This document shows positions 6,127 to 10,391 of a stretch of 64,000 nt of DNA, one piece after another; the first letter of the stretch is position 1; each line of letters opens with the position of its first letter. Source of the DNA: Alphaproteobacteria bacterium (lineage in GTDB: Bacteria > Pseudomonadota > Alphaproteobacteria > UBA2966); assembly GCA_018650465.1 (NCBI GenBank), contig JABIFY010000092.1:79477-143476 (forward strand), written 5' to 3'. The translations under genes and the position numbers were made by a program. Under the pieces are notes generated by a model. It saw only the letters and a list, made by a program, of their open reading frames with translations. It searched no databases and was not told where the DNA came from.

Positions 6127-6753
6127 TCAATACAAACTATTGTCATGATCCTCGTTGACCAGGGCCTGAATATCGTTAAGTCTTTCCGGCAACTTGCCAT
6201 GCGACTTGAGGGATTCAGCCAGAGTTGGCACGTCGCTGGTATCGGGCCAGGCATCGGGGCGCCACAGGCTTGAGCGCGTGATAGATTTGGCGCAATGCAT
6301 AAAGGCTTCTTCCACACTGACGATCATGATCAGATCGGGTTGTTTGCCGCGGATCGCCATGTCGGCCTGCAGGGCGGCGTCCCGCACCAGGGTCGCTTTG
6401 CCTGTTACCCGCAAGGTATAGCCGTAACCGGGGATCAGGAATATCAGGCCAACTGCCGGATCAGACAACAGGTTTTCGTAGGAATCGATGCGTTGGTTGC
6501 CAAGACGATTGGGGATCGCCAGAGTTTTTTCGTCCAGCACCATAACAAAACCCGCGGGATCACCTCTGGGTGACATGGCAACCTTGTCATCACTGCCCCT
6601 GCTGGAAAGAACAATGAAAGGGCAGGCAGCGATAAATCGCTGGAAGAGGTCGTCGATATGATCGATTTTTTTGTCGGGCGCGAATGTGGGTTCGGGAATG
6701 ATGTCGCGCAATTGTTCCCGGCTTGTGATGACCTCGTCGAAGCGATTGTTCAT
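6127..6753 (-). CDS. Pyridoxamine 5'-phosphate oxidase-like FMN-binding protein (MSMEG_1061-type)
   Basis: This 208-residue protein shows the split-barrel FMN-binding pattern: FIAACPFIVLSSRGSDDKVAMSPRGDPAGFVMVLDEKTLAIPNRLGNQRIDSYENLLSDPAVGLIFLIPGYG, then the strand TLRVTGKATLVRD. That order matches the PNPOx-like subfamily whose members are general flavin or F420-type oxidoreductases, not the vitamin B6 enzyme itself. Its ATG overlaps the stop of the sensor kinase (ATGA at 6750-6753), so it is the last gene of the regulator-kinase operon. AGGAG precedes the start. Substrate unknown. Confidence 0.75.
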   Translation of the reverse strand: MNNRFDEVITSREQLRDIIPEPTFAPDKKIDHIDDLFQRFIAACPFIVLSSRGSDDKVAMSPRGDPAGFVMVLDEKTLAIPNRLGNQRIDSYENLLSDPAVGLIFLIPGYGYTLRVTGKATLVRDAALQADMAIRGKQPDLIMIVSVEEAFMHCAKSITRSSLWRPDAWPDTSDVPTLAESLKSHGKLPERLNDIQALVNEDHDNSLY

Positions 6754-8321
6754 TTGACATTCTCCTGACCTTGCAGAGGCAACAGGATATTGAAAACGGC
6801 ACCGCCTGTCTTCCTGTCGCTAACCGTAATGTCACCGCCATGGGCCCGCACGATGGTGCGTGAAATGGCGAGCCCCAGGCCAATACCACCGGTCTCGCGA
6901 TTGCGGGAACTTTCAAGGCGCACGAAAGGTTCAAAAATGCGTTCCCGGTCTTCTGCTGAAATGCCAGGGCCGCTGTCTTCGATAGAAATACACAGGCCAT
7001 CGCCCCGGGATGAAATGTCAACTTTGGCCTTGTCACCATAACGCACAGCATTTTCAACCAGGTTGCGGATCACCCGCTTCAGGGCATTGGGATGGCAGCT
7101 ATAGGGCAGCCGATCCAGATCACTATCGAAATGGACGTCTTGCCCAAGATCAGACAAGTCGGCACATACGGCATCGACCAGGGCCAGCAGATCGACATTT
7201 CGTGTTTGTTCTTCTTCCGCGTCCTGTCGGGCAAACTCCAGGGTGGCATCGGTCAGGGCCTGCATTTCAGCAAGGGTTTCCAATATGCGGTCGCGGTTTT
7301 CCCCGTCTTCGATCATTTCAGCGCGAATACGCAGGGAGGTTATGGGTGTGCGCAGATCGTGGGTAATGGCCGCCAGCATCAAGGTGCGGTCGCGTACAAA
7401 TCGGGTCAAACGATCCTGCATCTGATTGAAGGCCCGACTGGCCTTGCGAATATCTTCCGGGCCCTTTTCCGTCAGTTCCTTGACGTCTTCGCCGCGCCCC
7501 AGGCGTTCGGCATTGTCTGCCAGTTCTGCCAGCGGACGGGTGACGCGACGGACCATGAAGATCACAACTATCACCAACAGGACCGCCATAATGGCAATGG
7601 TCACCAGGGACGGGATGGCCACCGCCGGGCCGGTTGGTGGCACCCGGTTATAAACGTTTAGCCAGACATCGGCATCATTGGACCTTGTTTTGACAGAAAT
7701 CGTCAGGCTGGAGACCGGTCCGCGATGGCGACGACCGAAATGCATACGGCGATTGCGGTCTTCCCGCCATGACTTGAACCAGCCTCTGTGCTGCGGCCAG
7801 GAATCAGCATCGTCGCGCATGTGATCATCGTCATCGTCGTCGTCGTCCTTATCCTTCCGGTCATCATCATCGTCATCCTTCCGGTCATCGTCGTCGTCGC
7901 GATCGTCATCATCGTCTTCCTGCACGGCGACCCTCACGACAGTCGCCTTGTCTGTCAGTGCCCCGATCAAACGGCGTTGCAAAAAGCGGTCAAATCCTTC
8001 GGCGTCTTCGTCTGGTTCGACCGCACTTGTCTTTTCCAGCTGAAAGCGCAGGCGTCGACTGGATGCGGCCTTGACGATGGTTTGATGCAGTTCCGGTTCA
8101 GACTTGTTCAGCAATTGGACCACGGAAGCCGTACGTGACAGCACCTCCTGCTGGGCCGAAAACAAAAAGGCAAGGCGGCGGTCATCACGCAAGATGATCA
8201 GGCTGGCAATTTGCGCGACGACCAAGGCCAGCAACAAAACCGTGATCAATTGACCGGCAAGACTTTTTGGCCAGTATTTTGTAACTGACCAGGTTTTAGT
8301 ATTTGATGACTGCTTTGTCAT
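6750..8321 (-). CDS. Two-component sensor histidine kinase with an Asp-rich periplasmic loop
   Basis: The 523-residue kinase has two membrane segments (about 22-44 and 236-257), a periplasmic domain between them, and a HAMP linker from about 258. The HisKA H-box is AAITHDLRTPITSL; the ATPase boxes are NLVENAVRYG, DSGPGIS and GGIGLGLAISRTI, so this is an EnvZ-class kinase. The odd part is residues 135-172 of the periplasmic loop, which are almost entirely Asp with a few Arg/Lys. This suggests binding of Ca2+ or another divalent or polycationic ligand. Its stop/start codons overlap both neighbours (regulator upstream, flavin protein downstream). The divergent EF-hand gene carries a similar acidic tail, which supports a cation-related signal; that link is inference. 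Confidence 0.9.
   Translation of the reverse strand: MTKQSSNTKTWSVTKYWPKSLAGQLITVLLLALVVAQIASLIILRDDRRLAFLFSAQQEVLSRTASVVQLLNKSEPELHQTIVKAASSRRLRFQLEKTSAVEPDEDAEGFDRFLQRRLIGALTDKATVVRVAVQEDDDDDRDDDDDRKDDDDDDRKDKDDDDDDDDHMRDDADSWPQHRGWFKSWREDRNRRMHFGRRHRGPVSSLTISVKTRSNDADVWLNVYNRVPPTGPAVAIPSLVTIAIMAVLLVIVVIFMVRRVTRPLAELADNAERLGRGEDVKELTEKGPEDIRKASRAFNQMQDRLTRFVRDRTLMLAAITHDLRTPITSLRIRAEMIEDGENRDRILETLAEMQALTDATLEFARQDAEEEQTRNVDLLALVDAVCADLSDLGQDVHFDSDLDRLPYSCHPNALKRVIRNLVENAVRYGDKAKVDISSRGDGLCISIEDSGPGISAEDRERIFEPFVRLESSRNRETGGIGLGLAISRTIVRAHGGDITVSDRKTGGAVFNILLPLQGQENVK
7806..7919 (-). repeat. Low-complexity Asp-codon tract inside the sensor kinase gene
   Basis: This stretch is nearly all GAT/GAC codons (seen on the plus strand as cgtcatcatcg-like text) and encodes the Asp-rich periplasmic loop, residues 135-172. 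Blocks such as RKDDDDDDRK recur, suggesting growth by short in-frame duplication. Confidence 0.85.
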
Positions 8322-9037
8322 TGCGGTTCAACGTCACACGTCAGCATGTAACCACCACCCCAGACGGTTTTGATCAGGGTGGGCTTTTTGGGGTCGTCTT
8401 CCAGTTTTTTTCGCAGGCGGCTGATCTGGTTATCGATGGCCCGGTCAAAGACTTTGGCACTGCGCCCACTGGTGATGTCCAGCAACTGCTCGCGGCTAAG
8501 GACCATTTTGGGGTGCTCCACAAAGGCGCTTAACAAATGAAACTCTGCTGTGCTAAGGGGAATGGCAATCTGGTCTTCGCCGATGGCTTCGCGCTGCCCG
8601 ACGTCCAGCAGCCATTTACCAAAGCGTATCTTGGCTGTTTCGGTCGGGGTGCTACGCGGTGGCAGGCTGTGGGCCCGGCGCAAAACCGATTTGATACGGG
8701 CCAGCAGTTCCCGCGGACTGAAGGGCTTGGTCAGGTAATCATCTGCGCCCATTTCCAGACCCACGATGCGGTCGGTTTCTTCCGCCACAGCGGTCAGCAA
8801 AATAATCGGCAGGTCTGTTGTCTGGCGTAAATGCTGGCACAGGGATAAACCGTCTTCCCCAGGCATCATGATATCCAGCACCACCAGATCAAAGGCGCTG
8901 GCGGCGATTAACTTGCGGGCTTCGGCGGCGTCAACGGCGATGCTGGTGCGATAGTCATGTTGGGTGAGGTACTTACCCAGACTTTCGCGGATATCGCGGT
9001 GATCGTCGACGATCAAGATGTGATGTGCACTTTGCAT
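8318..9037 (-). CDS. OmpR-family DNA-binding response regulator
   Basis: With start at ATG 9037 the protein is 239 residues, the normal length. It has a receiver domain (HHILIVDDHRDIRESLGKYL, phospho-acceptor in DLVVLDIMMPGEDG, LLTAVAEETD, DYLTKPFSPREL) and a C-terminal winged helix (FHLLSAFVEHPKMVLSREQLLDI, VFDRAIDNQISRLRKKLEDD, IKTVWGGGYMLT). A TTG at 9088 would add 17 residues with no family match, so I prefer 9037. The stop overlaps the kinase start (8318-8321), making a cognate pair. The probable target is the divergent EF-hand/b561 promoter, where a 9-mer repeats three times. Confidence 0.93.
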   Translation of the reverse strand: MQSAHHILIVDDHRDIRESLGKYLTQHDYRTSIAVDAAEARKLIAASAFDLVVLDIMMPGEDGLSLCQHLRQTTDLPIILLTAVAEETDRIVGLEMGADDYLTKPFSPRELLARIKSVLRRAHSLPPRSTPTETAKIRFGKWLLDVGQREAIGEDQIAIPLSTAEFHLLSAFVEHPKMVLSREQLLDITSGRSAKVFDRAIDNQISRLRKKLEDDPKKPTLIKTVWGGGYMLTCDVEPQ

Positions 9038-9090
9038 GGCTGGACTATGCCCCTGAAATCCCGTCGGGTGAGAATAAAAGTGTATCAAAC

Positions 9091-9158
9091 TGTCGCAAAA
9101 ACAGAAGCTGCGACGGTTTGCGACAATTCAGTACTTTGGCTGACAAACTTTTGCGACA
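9091..9158. promoter_or_regulatory. Candidate operator: three TTTGCGACA boxes between divergent genes
   Basis: The 9-mer TTTGCGACA occurs at 9117-9125 and 9150-9158 in direct orientation (33 bases apart, about three helical turns) and once inverted at 9091-9099 (TGTCGCAAA). All three are perfect and lie between the response regulator and the EF-hand gene. Direct repeats with this kind of helical phasing are typical of OmpR-family binding sites, so autoregulation plus control of the divergent genes is likely. The regulator assignment is inference. Confidence 0.65.
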
Positions 9159-9221
9159 TCTATGGCCTTAAATGTTTTTCAAGGACGGCAATCACGCTGA
9201 TCTGCAAAAACGAGGTTTGAT

Positions 9222-9737
9222 ATGCAAAAGCGCACAAAAATTCTTCTTGGCACGACGACAGCTGCAATTATCCTGGCCGGGGCCGTTGGGGTCAGCGCTG
9301 CCCGCGATAGCCACAGAGGTGGCATGATGGGGCATAATGGCATGGGCGGTATGGGCATGCATGCCATGGCTGAAAAAATCTTTGACCGGTTTGATGCAAA
9401 CGGCAACGGTGCCGTCAGCAAAGCCGAAGTCAAAAAATTTCCCCGATCTGAAATACAAAAACATGATGCCAACAAGGACGGCAAACTCAGCCTGGATGAA
9501 TTTGAAGCCTTGTGGGTTGGTTATGTGCGGGAACGCATGGTGGACCATTTCCAGAAACTGGATGCCAACGGTGATGCCACTGTGACTGAAGATGAAATCG
9601 CCCGCCCGCTGAACAAGATGATGTCATGGCTGGACCGCAATGATGACGACACCCTGACCAAAGGCGAATTGCGCCACAAACGTTATGGAAAACACCGTCG
9701 CCACGACGACGATGATGATGACCGCAAGAAGGACTGA
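9222..9737 (+). CDS. Exported calcium-binding protein with four EF-hands and acidic C-terminus
   Basis: This 171-residue protein has a signal peptide (residues 1-27, hydrophobic LLGTTTAAIILAGAVGVSAA), then a Met/His/Gly-rich segment (31-49). Four EF-hand loops start at D58 (DANGNGAVSKAE), D82 (DANKDGKLSLDE), D114 (DANGDATVTEDE) and D138 (DRNDDDTLTKGE). The tail HRRHDDDDDDRKKD echoes the Asp-rich loop of the adjacent sensor kinase. It is predicted to be periplasmic and to bind Ca2+. The Met/His-rich stretch could also bind copper or another metal. Divergent to the regulator gene, it precedes cytochrome b561 and is probably co-transcribed with it. Confidence 0.88.
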   Translation: MQKRTKILLGTTTAAIILAGAVGVSAARDSHRGGMMGHNGMGGMGMHAMAEKIFDRFDANGNGAVSKAEVKKFPRSEIQKHDANKDGKLSLDEFEALWVGYVRERMVDHFQKLDANGDATVTEDEIARPLNKMMSWLDRNDDDTLTKGELRHKRYGKHRRHDDDDDDRKKD

Positions 9738-9836
9738 TCGGTCTGATTGGTTTGAAGTTCCCCGGTGCGTCCGGTGCTGTCGAATTACCGGGCAGCACCG
9801 GAGGACCATACAACAGCGTTCATGACGGAGGCAAAA

Positions 9837-10391
9837 ATGCAAATCAGGGATACAGCGAGCAATTATGGTTTTACGTCAATCTGGCTGCACTGGATCAGTG
9901 CTGGCCTGGTTGCCGTTCTATTTGTGTCCGGGAAAATCGTTGAAGACATGTCACGCGGTGCCGCCAAATGGGAATTGATGGCGGTGCATCAATCTCTGGG
10001 CATGTTGCTTTTCATTGTTGTTCTGGCGCGTTTGCTGTGGCGGCTGGGCCAGGGCTTCCCTGATCCTGTTGATAAACAAGGTTCAGTCTTGGCTAAACTG
10101 TCCCGCGCTTGGCACTGGATCCTCTTGGGATTTCTTATGTTGATCCCTGTTTCAGGCTATTTACTGGCTGAAACCGGCCTTCATGACCTGAACTTTTTTG
10201 GCCTGGTTGCTTTACCCGACGTGCTGGGCACGGATCGCGATATGCATGAATTTATTGAAGAAGTACATGAAACCCTGAGCAATTTGCTCCTGCCACTTGT
10301 TGCAGTACATGTTTTGGCTGCCCTGAAACATCATTATTTTGACCGGGACGGGACCTTAAAGCGTATGGTCAGTGCGGGGTACAAGGCATGA
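9837..10391 (+). CDS. Cytochrome b561
   Basis: From ATG 9837 (GGAG five bases upstream) the protein has 184 residues and four membrane segments. Candidate haem-ligand His residues are in SIWLHWISAGLV, LMAVHQSLGMLL, EFIEEVHETLSNLL and AVHVLAALKHHYF. The ending KHHYFDRDGTLKRM is typical of the bacterial b561 (CybB) family, diheme quinol:electron-acceptor proteins of the inner membrane. The longer frame from 9765 has no ribosome site. Its position behind the EF-hand gene and next to a metal- or acid-type two-component system suggests a linked membrane redox response. Confidence 0.9.
   Translation: MQIRDTASNYGFTSIWLHWISAGLVAVLFVSGKIVEDMSRGAAKWELMAVHQSLGMLLFIVVLARLLWRLGQGFPDPVDKQGSVLAKLSRAWHWILLGFLMLIPVSGYLLAETGLHDLNFFGLVALPDVLGTDRDMHEFIEEVHETLSNLLLPLVAVHVLAALKHHYFDRDGTLKRMVSAGYKA

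Follow-up and report, generated by a model that had tools for sequence, protein, structure and literature searches.

What does a bacterial sensor kinase respond to when part of its extracytoplasmic loop consists mostly of aspartate, and what might it mean that an exported protein encoded beside it, in the opposite direction, carries aspartates at its end as well? The question is raised by a locus in a stretch of 64,000 nucleotides (the window; G+C content 53.6%) from an alphaproteobacterium of the UBA2966 lineage (assembly GCA_018650465.1, contig JABIFY010000092.1, positions 79,477 to 143,476), whose genome (G000) has a size of 4.8 Mb. Genes for a response regulator, the sensor and a PPOX-type flavoprotein follow one another on the minus strand, and genes for an EF-hand protein and a cytochrome b561 lie divergently on the plus strand. 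The initial annotation had described a module of Asp-rich sensor, EF-hand protein and b561, all of which are present, and had left the regulator within the same range (8318-9037) unnamed. We find that the pairing of sensor, regulator and EF-hand gene is conserved in relatives, and that the acidity of the sensor loop and of the EF-hand protein's tail co-varies after phylogenetic correction. Drawing on sequence and on analogy, we propose with moderate confidence a three-component envelope system, similar to those of CpxP and ZraP, that senses a cation or metal and whose EF-hand accessory shares the ligand-type tract of its sensor. The parts on which the argument turns are the following.

6750 to 8321, minus strand: sensor histidine kinase of 523 amino acids, with a first transmembrane segment, extracytoplasmic domain, second transmembrane segment, HAMP, HisKA and HATPase_c (Pfam HAMP, HisKA and HATPase_c; AlphaFold model; homologs)
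7806 to 7919, minus strand: Asp-rich stretch in the sensor loop, residues 135-172 (sequence; low-confidence and probably disordered between predicted strands)
7719 to 7799, minus strand: basic, aromatic, His-containing segment past the Asp tract, residues 175-201 (sequence; same low-confidence stretch)
8318 to 9037, minus strand: response regulator of the OmpR/PhoB type (Pfam Response_reg and Trans_reg_C)
9222 to 9737, plus strand: exported-type protein of 171 amino acids with four EF-hands (Pfam EF-hand_1, EF-hand_5, EF-hand_6 and EF-hand_7; family alignment)
9393 to 9428, plus strand: EF-hand loop 1, D58-E69, DANGNGAVSKAE (sequence)
9465 to 9500, plus strand: EF-hand loop 2, D82-E93, DANKDGKLSLDE (sequence)
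9561 to 9596, plus strand: EF-hand loop 3, D114-E125, DANGDATVTEDE (sequence)
9633 to 9668, plus strand: EF-hand loop 4, D138-E149, DRNDDDTLTKGE (sequence)
9702 to 9734, plus strand: acidic tail HDDDDDDRKKD (sequence; co-varies with the sensor loop)

The initial annotation had pointed to a periplasmic sensor loop of about 38 mostly Asp residues, and residues 135-172 indeed comprise 27 Asp, one Glu, three Lys and four Arg, encoded by mixed GAC and GAT codons rather than by a pure DNA repeat. In the AlphaFold model of the sensor (mean pLDDT 67.3) residues 137-182 and 184-201 fall below a pLDDT of 50, between predicted strands 129-135 and 204-211, and the Asp stretch is probably disordered. Transmembrane segments were taken from the sequence and the model rather than from a transmembrane predictor. 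Comparison of the model retrieved kinase domains and barely covered the residues before 291, and we therefore claim no fold for the sensor domain. The regulator gene, whose ATG start agrees with relatives, overlaps the sensor gene by 4 bp. The description of its divergent neighbour as an exported protein with four intact EF-hands and an Asp tail holds: read from the sequence, acceptable residues fill the calcium ligand positions in all four loops, and three of them fit a PROSITE-style pattern, from which loop 3 departs at position 6 alone (Ala). With Pfam EF-hand models the protein reaches 45-55 bits; it also matches DUF7151 marginally, and LTXXQ is absent among its Pfam matches at E <= 0.001; export was judged from the hydrophobic N-terminus rather than by a predictor, and its structure model has low confidence (mean pLDDT 59).

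How closely the two acidic regions are linked was assessed over 32 loci, by scoring, in the sensor loop and in the tail past the last EF-hand, the 12-residue stretch with the highest acidity, and by computing phylogenetic independent contrasts, with 10000 permutations, on a tree built from the cytoplasmic part of the sensor. The set leaves out L205 (the same as L084), L077 (the same as L061), L212 (a stop inside the sensor), loci without an EF-hand, and L064, L074, L083 and L085, where the sensor is not in the stretch or the EF-hand gene is cut; the tails of L206, L214 and L215, in which the pattern had misplaced the last EF-hand, were set by hand, changing the score of L206 from 1 to 9 and leaving the others at 5. 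Loop and tail acidity rise together (Spearman 0.83; contrasts r = 0.66, 0 of 10000 permutations), close relatives within the set being handled by the contrasts and not by the Spearman value. Asp alone gives r = 0.68 (p 0.0001); r ranges from 0.60 to 0.74 across scored spans of 6-20 residues and an EF-hand tree, is 0.70 without the window's clade (n = 26) and stays at 0.66 with four plasmid members added (n = 36). In the contrasts the acidity of the sensor's catalytic part, used as a control, is associated neither with that of the tail (r = 0.08, p 0.65) nor with that of the loop (r = -0.05, p 0.79). Basic loops also go with basic tails (r = 0.47, 60 of 10000). With close relatives sorted manually into 23 groups and one member taken from each, the composition of the sensor insert was nearer to that of its own tail than to mismatched tails (0 of 20000), also with D and E removed (81 of 20000) and with D, E, K and R removed (87 of 20000). 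The tract switches between sister groups on the tree; it is acidic, for example, in L208 and L210 and not in L062 and L065. The acidic tract that had been noted as common to sensor and target is thus real, and it co-varies in relatives after phylogenetic correction.

A conserved gene neighbourhood in relatives, the absence of which had been named beforehand as refuting the proposal, was found as well. Among 61 genomes, the own genome and relatives, the EF-hand protein has matches in 25 (E <= 0.001) and the sensor in 21 (E <= 1e-60). In a survey of 386 alphaproteobacterial genomes the EF-hand profile matches 98 (E <= 1e-12), and in at least 22 a sensor gene and an EF-hand gene occupy opposite strands no more than about 5 kb apart, a minimum obtained by manual comparison of the match positions of the two profiles. 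The sensor-regulator pair and the EF-hand gene lie on opposite strands in 31 of 32 compared loci; neighbouring genes were reviewed for part of the loci.

The divergent position is not always occupied by an EF-hand gene. In one relative, the only one of this type seen (G015, L075), it holds an LTXXQ protein (38.3 bits, cut-off 24.3) followed by a b561 gene, and the sensor loop has 10 acidic residues in 12. In G304, G219 and G271 (L220, L221 and L223) the occupant is a small exported-type protein that fits no family. A PepSY assignment as a third accessory type was considered for these; one of the three proteins matched YpeB PepSY in Pfam (E = 0.036) and none matched in NCBIfam, so the small protein is left unclassified. 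By eye, the one in G271 (L223, 2088-2756, minus strand) looks like two tandem copies of the unit that is single in L220 and L221. No such accessory was recognised by eye beside the related sensors of G054, G361 and G392 (L076, L222 and L224). None of these seven loci has an EF-hand gene in its stretch. Three loci (L066, L067 and L069) have an extra small exported-type frame between regulator and EF-hand gene, possibly a second accessory. The EF-hand protein encoded on a contig labelled Anaerolineae (L083) closely resembles its counterpart in an alphaproteobacterial metagenome-assembled genome (L084), and the contig is possibly misbinned.

The divergent promoter region between the regulator and EF-hand genes contains a cluster of repeats.

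9081 to 9097, plus strand: TGTATCAAACTGTCGCA, conserved candidate regulator site (motif comparison; exact match to TGTATCAAANTGTCGCA)
9110 to 9158, plus strand: further repeats GCGACGGTTTGCGACA (9110-9125) and TGACAAACTTTTGCGACA (9141-9158), similar by eye in L061, L078, L079 and L080

By eye, TGTATCAAAnTGTCGCA and TGCGACA-type repeats are kept in this position in the window and in the same four loci, and some distant members retain elements like TGTAACA or TGTATCA. The exact 17-mer TGTATCAAANTGTCGCA has one match per genome in five genomes, each time in this promoter, and the conserved cluster fits autoregulation. A large regulon was considered and rejected: with up to three mismatches allowed, TGTATCAAANTGTCGCA has 40 sites in G000 and the reversed control has 17, but one site is exact. 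Inspection of ten near-match loci returned the module's own promoter (L101), the others lying inside genes or before unrelated genes; among them a site with one mismatch precedes a transporter binding-protein gene in G061 (L092). The only site seen in two genomes, a close match to the promoter motif, stands before a gene for an HlyD/MacA-like adaptor in the two members of the genus, G000 (C119:56816, L099) and G001 (C121:44105, L095). The motif is absent before the adaptor homologs in G061-G063. The homolog in G061 is preceded, upstream of position 1087 of L244, by a frame with an Arg/Lys-rich end, reading TSDQRKKL, that perhaps encodes a Spy-like protein.

Several observations weigh against the proposed sensor with a matched accessory. 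In 16 of the 32 loci the sensor lacks a strongly acidic tract (score <= 5 of 12), so the tract is unneeded for the architecture, and L070 has all three genes in one direction. Besides its own promoter, the sole candidate target of the regulator seen in two genomes has the site in two of five genomes. Charge complementarity between the partners was tried and is not significant, whether acidic loops are compared with basic tails (contrasts r = 0.24, 1871 of 10000) or basic loops with acidic tails (r = 0.23, 2006 of 10000); two acidic partners do not in themselves predict contact, and both proteins could have become acidic through selection by the environment they share. A further control, loop acidity against the N-terminal linker of the EF-hand protein, is borderline (r = 0.34, p = 0.057), and the overall acidity of the catalytic part rises, uncorrected, with that of loop and tail (Spearman 0.61 and 0.53). 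The uncorrected correlations also favour the explanation that the acidic tracts are neutral low-complexity expansions whose co-variation comes from relatedness or from a genome-wide acidic bias, as do the varying length and position of the tracts and their predicted disorder. Contrasts, however, keep the loop-tail correlation and lose that of overall catalytic acidity with loop and tail (r = 0.12 and 0.21, not significant), and five-Asp runs are rare. Runs of GAY repeated five times, in any frame, occur in 8 places in G000 (counted by hand from the match table, as in the other genomes), two of which, at a distance of about 1.8 kb, belong to the present sensor and EF-hand genes; in G001, G061, G062 and G063, with 11, 6, 4 and 4 places respectively, the sensor and its EF-hand neighbour are again two of them. 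In Curvivirga (G064) the EF-hand tail has such a run and the sensor, with a Glu-rich tract, does not; both genes have one in five of the six genomes (G000, G001, G061, G062 and G063, not G064). We regard neutral expansion as unlikely.

The reading as a sensor with an exported accessory leans on comparison with known systems. ZraP is described as a repressor of ZraSR, and its gene is divergent from zraSR. The closest precedent that has been worked out is CpxP: cpxP is described as divergent from cpxRA, and CpxP as an inhibitor of CpxA, with which it makes salt-sensitive contacts that are thought to be electrostatic (PMC6737893, PMC4160245). The arrangement in the window and in 31 of 32 loci is alike in that a gene for a small exported-type accessory adjoins and diverges from a regulator-sensor pair; it differs in that the accessory in the window is an EF-hand protein rather than an LTXXQ protein as in CpxP/Spy, and that the sensor has a long Asp tract. 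An alphaproteobacterial combination of accessory, regulator and sensor is described in S. meliloti, where SMb21562, SMb21561 and SMb21560, encoding a CpxP-like (LTxxQ) protein, a regulator and a sensor, are up 69-, 27- and 14-fold in a tolC mutant (PMC2912261). There, in contrast, the accessory is of the LTxxQ type.

For the acidic loop there is a parallel in PhoQ, in which an acidic cluster in the periplasmic domain reads cations. The window sensor resembles it in having an acidic cluster in an extracytoplasmic sensor domain; its tract, however, is far longer and predicted to be disordered. PhoQ is not known to have an EF-hand accessory with a matching tract. PhoQ is described as repressed by divalent cations (PMC4473727). 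In Caulobacter vibrioides a periplasmic EF-hand protein, CaBP, is described as tied to the stress regulator SigV and as responsive to calcium and pH (PMC13171946), but SigV is an ECF sigma factor and not a two-component system, and the abstract-level description mentions no tract shared with a sensor. Literature searches confined to open-licence PubMed Central showed, among the papers listed, none on the present gene combination.

Several assignments of the window proteins to named systems were rejected. Against NCBIfam the sensor scores 220.6 bits for EnvZ (cut-off 415) and the regulator 263.9 for OmpR (cut-off 331), the heavy-metal sensor kinase model TIGR01386 (CzcS/SilS/CopS) gives 129.5 bits (cut-off 292.55), and PhoQ is not among the best 25 of 85 NCBIfam matches. 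Lanthanide sensing was likewise set aside: lanmodulin EF-hand loops have Pro at position 2, where the four loops here have Ala, Ala, Ala and Arg, and NF053806 scores 29.8 bits against a cut-off of 135. Among the related sensors, that of L070 (1749-3134) has Tyr in place of the expected phospho-accepting His (AAISYDLRTPL) and is possibly kinase-dead.

As to the ligand, relatives on plasmids suggest a metal role in part of the family. EF-hand matches occur on 77 plasmid records, largely of roseobacter genera, and five of ten inspected EF-hand regions (L231, L232, L233, L234 and L238; from Ruegeria, two Celeribacter, Martelella and Roseovarius) have a sensor-regulator pair on the strand opposite to the EF-hand gene and divergent from it. 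One or more copper genes lie near each of these five modules, the types being multicopper oxidase, CopB, azurin family, copper-binding protein and copper P-type ATPase. Four scored plasmid members have 10-13 Met/His in the 20 residues before the first EF-hand and 6-8 in 20 in the sensor loop, and the window EF-hand protein has 9 in 20 at its N-terminus. These findings argue for a system against heavy-metal (copper-like) stress, with the EF-hand protein as a periplasmic metal chaperone or scavenger and a sensor that detects the toxic metal or its oxidative damage. Against it, no copper gene was found by Pfam among the eight neighbouring window proteins tested, Asp is a hard ligand and not of the copper(I) type, and three further EF-hand plasmid regions (L230, L235 and L239) have copper genes and no sensor pair was found in them. 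Moreover, Met/His matching between sensor and accessory, tried as a general rule, comes from one clade and is not significant (contrasts r = 0.26, 1199 of 10000). We consider a copper-like stress system rather unlikely. Of the remaining EF-hand regions, L237 has neither copper genes nor a sensor pair, and L236, which is unannotated, has no sensor match. Sensor matches were found on 223 plasmid records; in all five inspected (Sinorhizobium, Indioceanicola, Rhizobium, Skermanella and Palleronia) no EF-hand gene lies beside the pair. One plasmid record, CP070277.1 (Dysgonomonadaceae), has the same length and an equal-score match as Martelella lutilitoris NZ_CP066787.1, possibly owing to a naming error.

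A circuit of calcium homeostasis, in which sensor loop and EF-hands bind Ca2+, the EF-hand protein acts as a Ca2+ buffer and b561 is the downstream redox enzyme, would accord with the canonical ligands in the four EF-hand loops and with the Asp tracts of both proteins. It also has a precedent involving CiaX, a short secreted peptide. In S. mutans this calcium-binding accessory of CiaRH is described as mediating repression by calcium (review). CiaXRH is comparable in that a calcium-binding-type accessory is encoded beside a two-component system; it differs in being Gram-positive, in the kind of accessory and in forming one operon rather than divergent units. However, homologous modules sit among copper genes, b561 is found at a minority of the EF-hand loci (see below), and EF-hands can be structural, so that a calcium-loaded scaffold does not make Ca2+ the signal. 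We consider a calcium homeostasis circuit about as unlikely as the copper-like stress system. On the sequence evidence, Ca2+, copper-like metals and polycations are all candidates for the ligand.

The last member of the originally described module, and a gene beyond the sensor, are encoded at the two ends of the locus.

9837 to 10391, plus strand: cytochrome b561 family membrane protein, 184 amino acids from an ATG after GGAGG (PF01292)
6127 to 6753, minus strand: PPOX-type flavoprotein gene (TIGR04025, 217 bits, cut-off 170)

The b561 protein scores 105.9 bits with PF01292 (cut-off 30.1), and its His 18, 51, 144, 158 and 165 are kept in nine of nine linked homologs, His 93 in eight. CybB is described as a superoxide:ubiquinone oxidoreductase (PMC9113575); the window protein stays below the equivalog cut-off for this superoxide oxidase (NF008566, 67.9 against 170 bits). 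In LcoA-BcnA a membrane b561 paired with an exported protein is described as acting against membrane lipid peroxidation (PMC9113575), which resembles the window in the combination of b561 and exported protein and differs in that the partner is a lipocalin. The b561 gene had been put forward as a member of the circuit, and it does follow the EF-hand gene in the window; it is found there in only eight of 33 EF-hand loci (the window, L061, L078, L079, L080, L209, L211 and L212; a lower bound, some stretches stopping near the EF-hand gene), with one extra membrane-protein-like frame in between in L078 and L079, and is therefore an optional partner. The PPOX-type gene overlaps the 3' end of the sensor gene by 4 bp, which suggests a single transcript, and is possibly an operon member; it is not beside the sensor in the same-genus relative G001.

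Of the cation-sensing circuit with feedback that the initial annotation had outlined, the conserved sensor/EF-hand pairing and the matched tracts stand, and the b561 arm is reduced to one version: the three-gene circuit with b561 is one among several. The secreted buffer suggested there is possible; the gene order agrees no less well with a feedback accessory of the CpxP/ZraP type. For the CpxP/ZraP-like sensor we envisage that the regulator would activate the divergent promoter, so that the exported protein would be induced as a partner of the system, comparable to CpxP for CpxRA and ZraP for ZraSR. The disordered acidic insert between two strands of the sensor's extracytoplasmic domain would be the ligand-responsive part and would detect, close to the inner membrane, a cation, be it Ca2+ or another divalent ion, a toxic metal or a polycation. 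Once induced, the EF-hand protein would lower the signal, either through binding of the same ligand or through contact with the sensor, and so close a negative feedback; b561, where present, may add a redox arm through superoxide or quinone chemistry.

A bolder and decidedly tentative extension is that the accessory might be a secreted decoy of its own sensor, with a copy-like insert in each lineage (Asp-rich with Asp-rich, and Met/His-rich pairs in the copper-associated clade) that withdraws the driving ligand, be it a metal ion or a polycation. The divergent slot would then be a plug-in for unrelated folds, i.e. an EF-hand, LTXXQ or unclassified small protein, around a constant sensor-regulator core.

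For most bacterial sensor kinases the detected signal is unknown, and a swappable sensor tract that changes together with an exported partner offers an evolutionary handle on it. Should the link between loop and tail prove causal, one could predict from an accessory's composition which class of ligand its sensor detects. Kinase control by an accessory, known for CpxP-type folds, would also be found with EF-hand proteins, and one group of exported alphaproteobacterial EF-hand proteins would gain a role.

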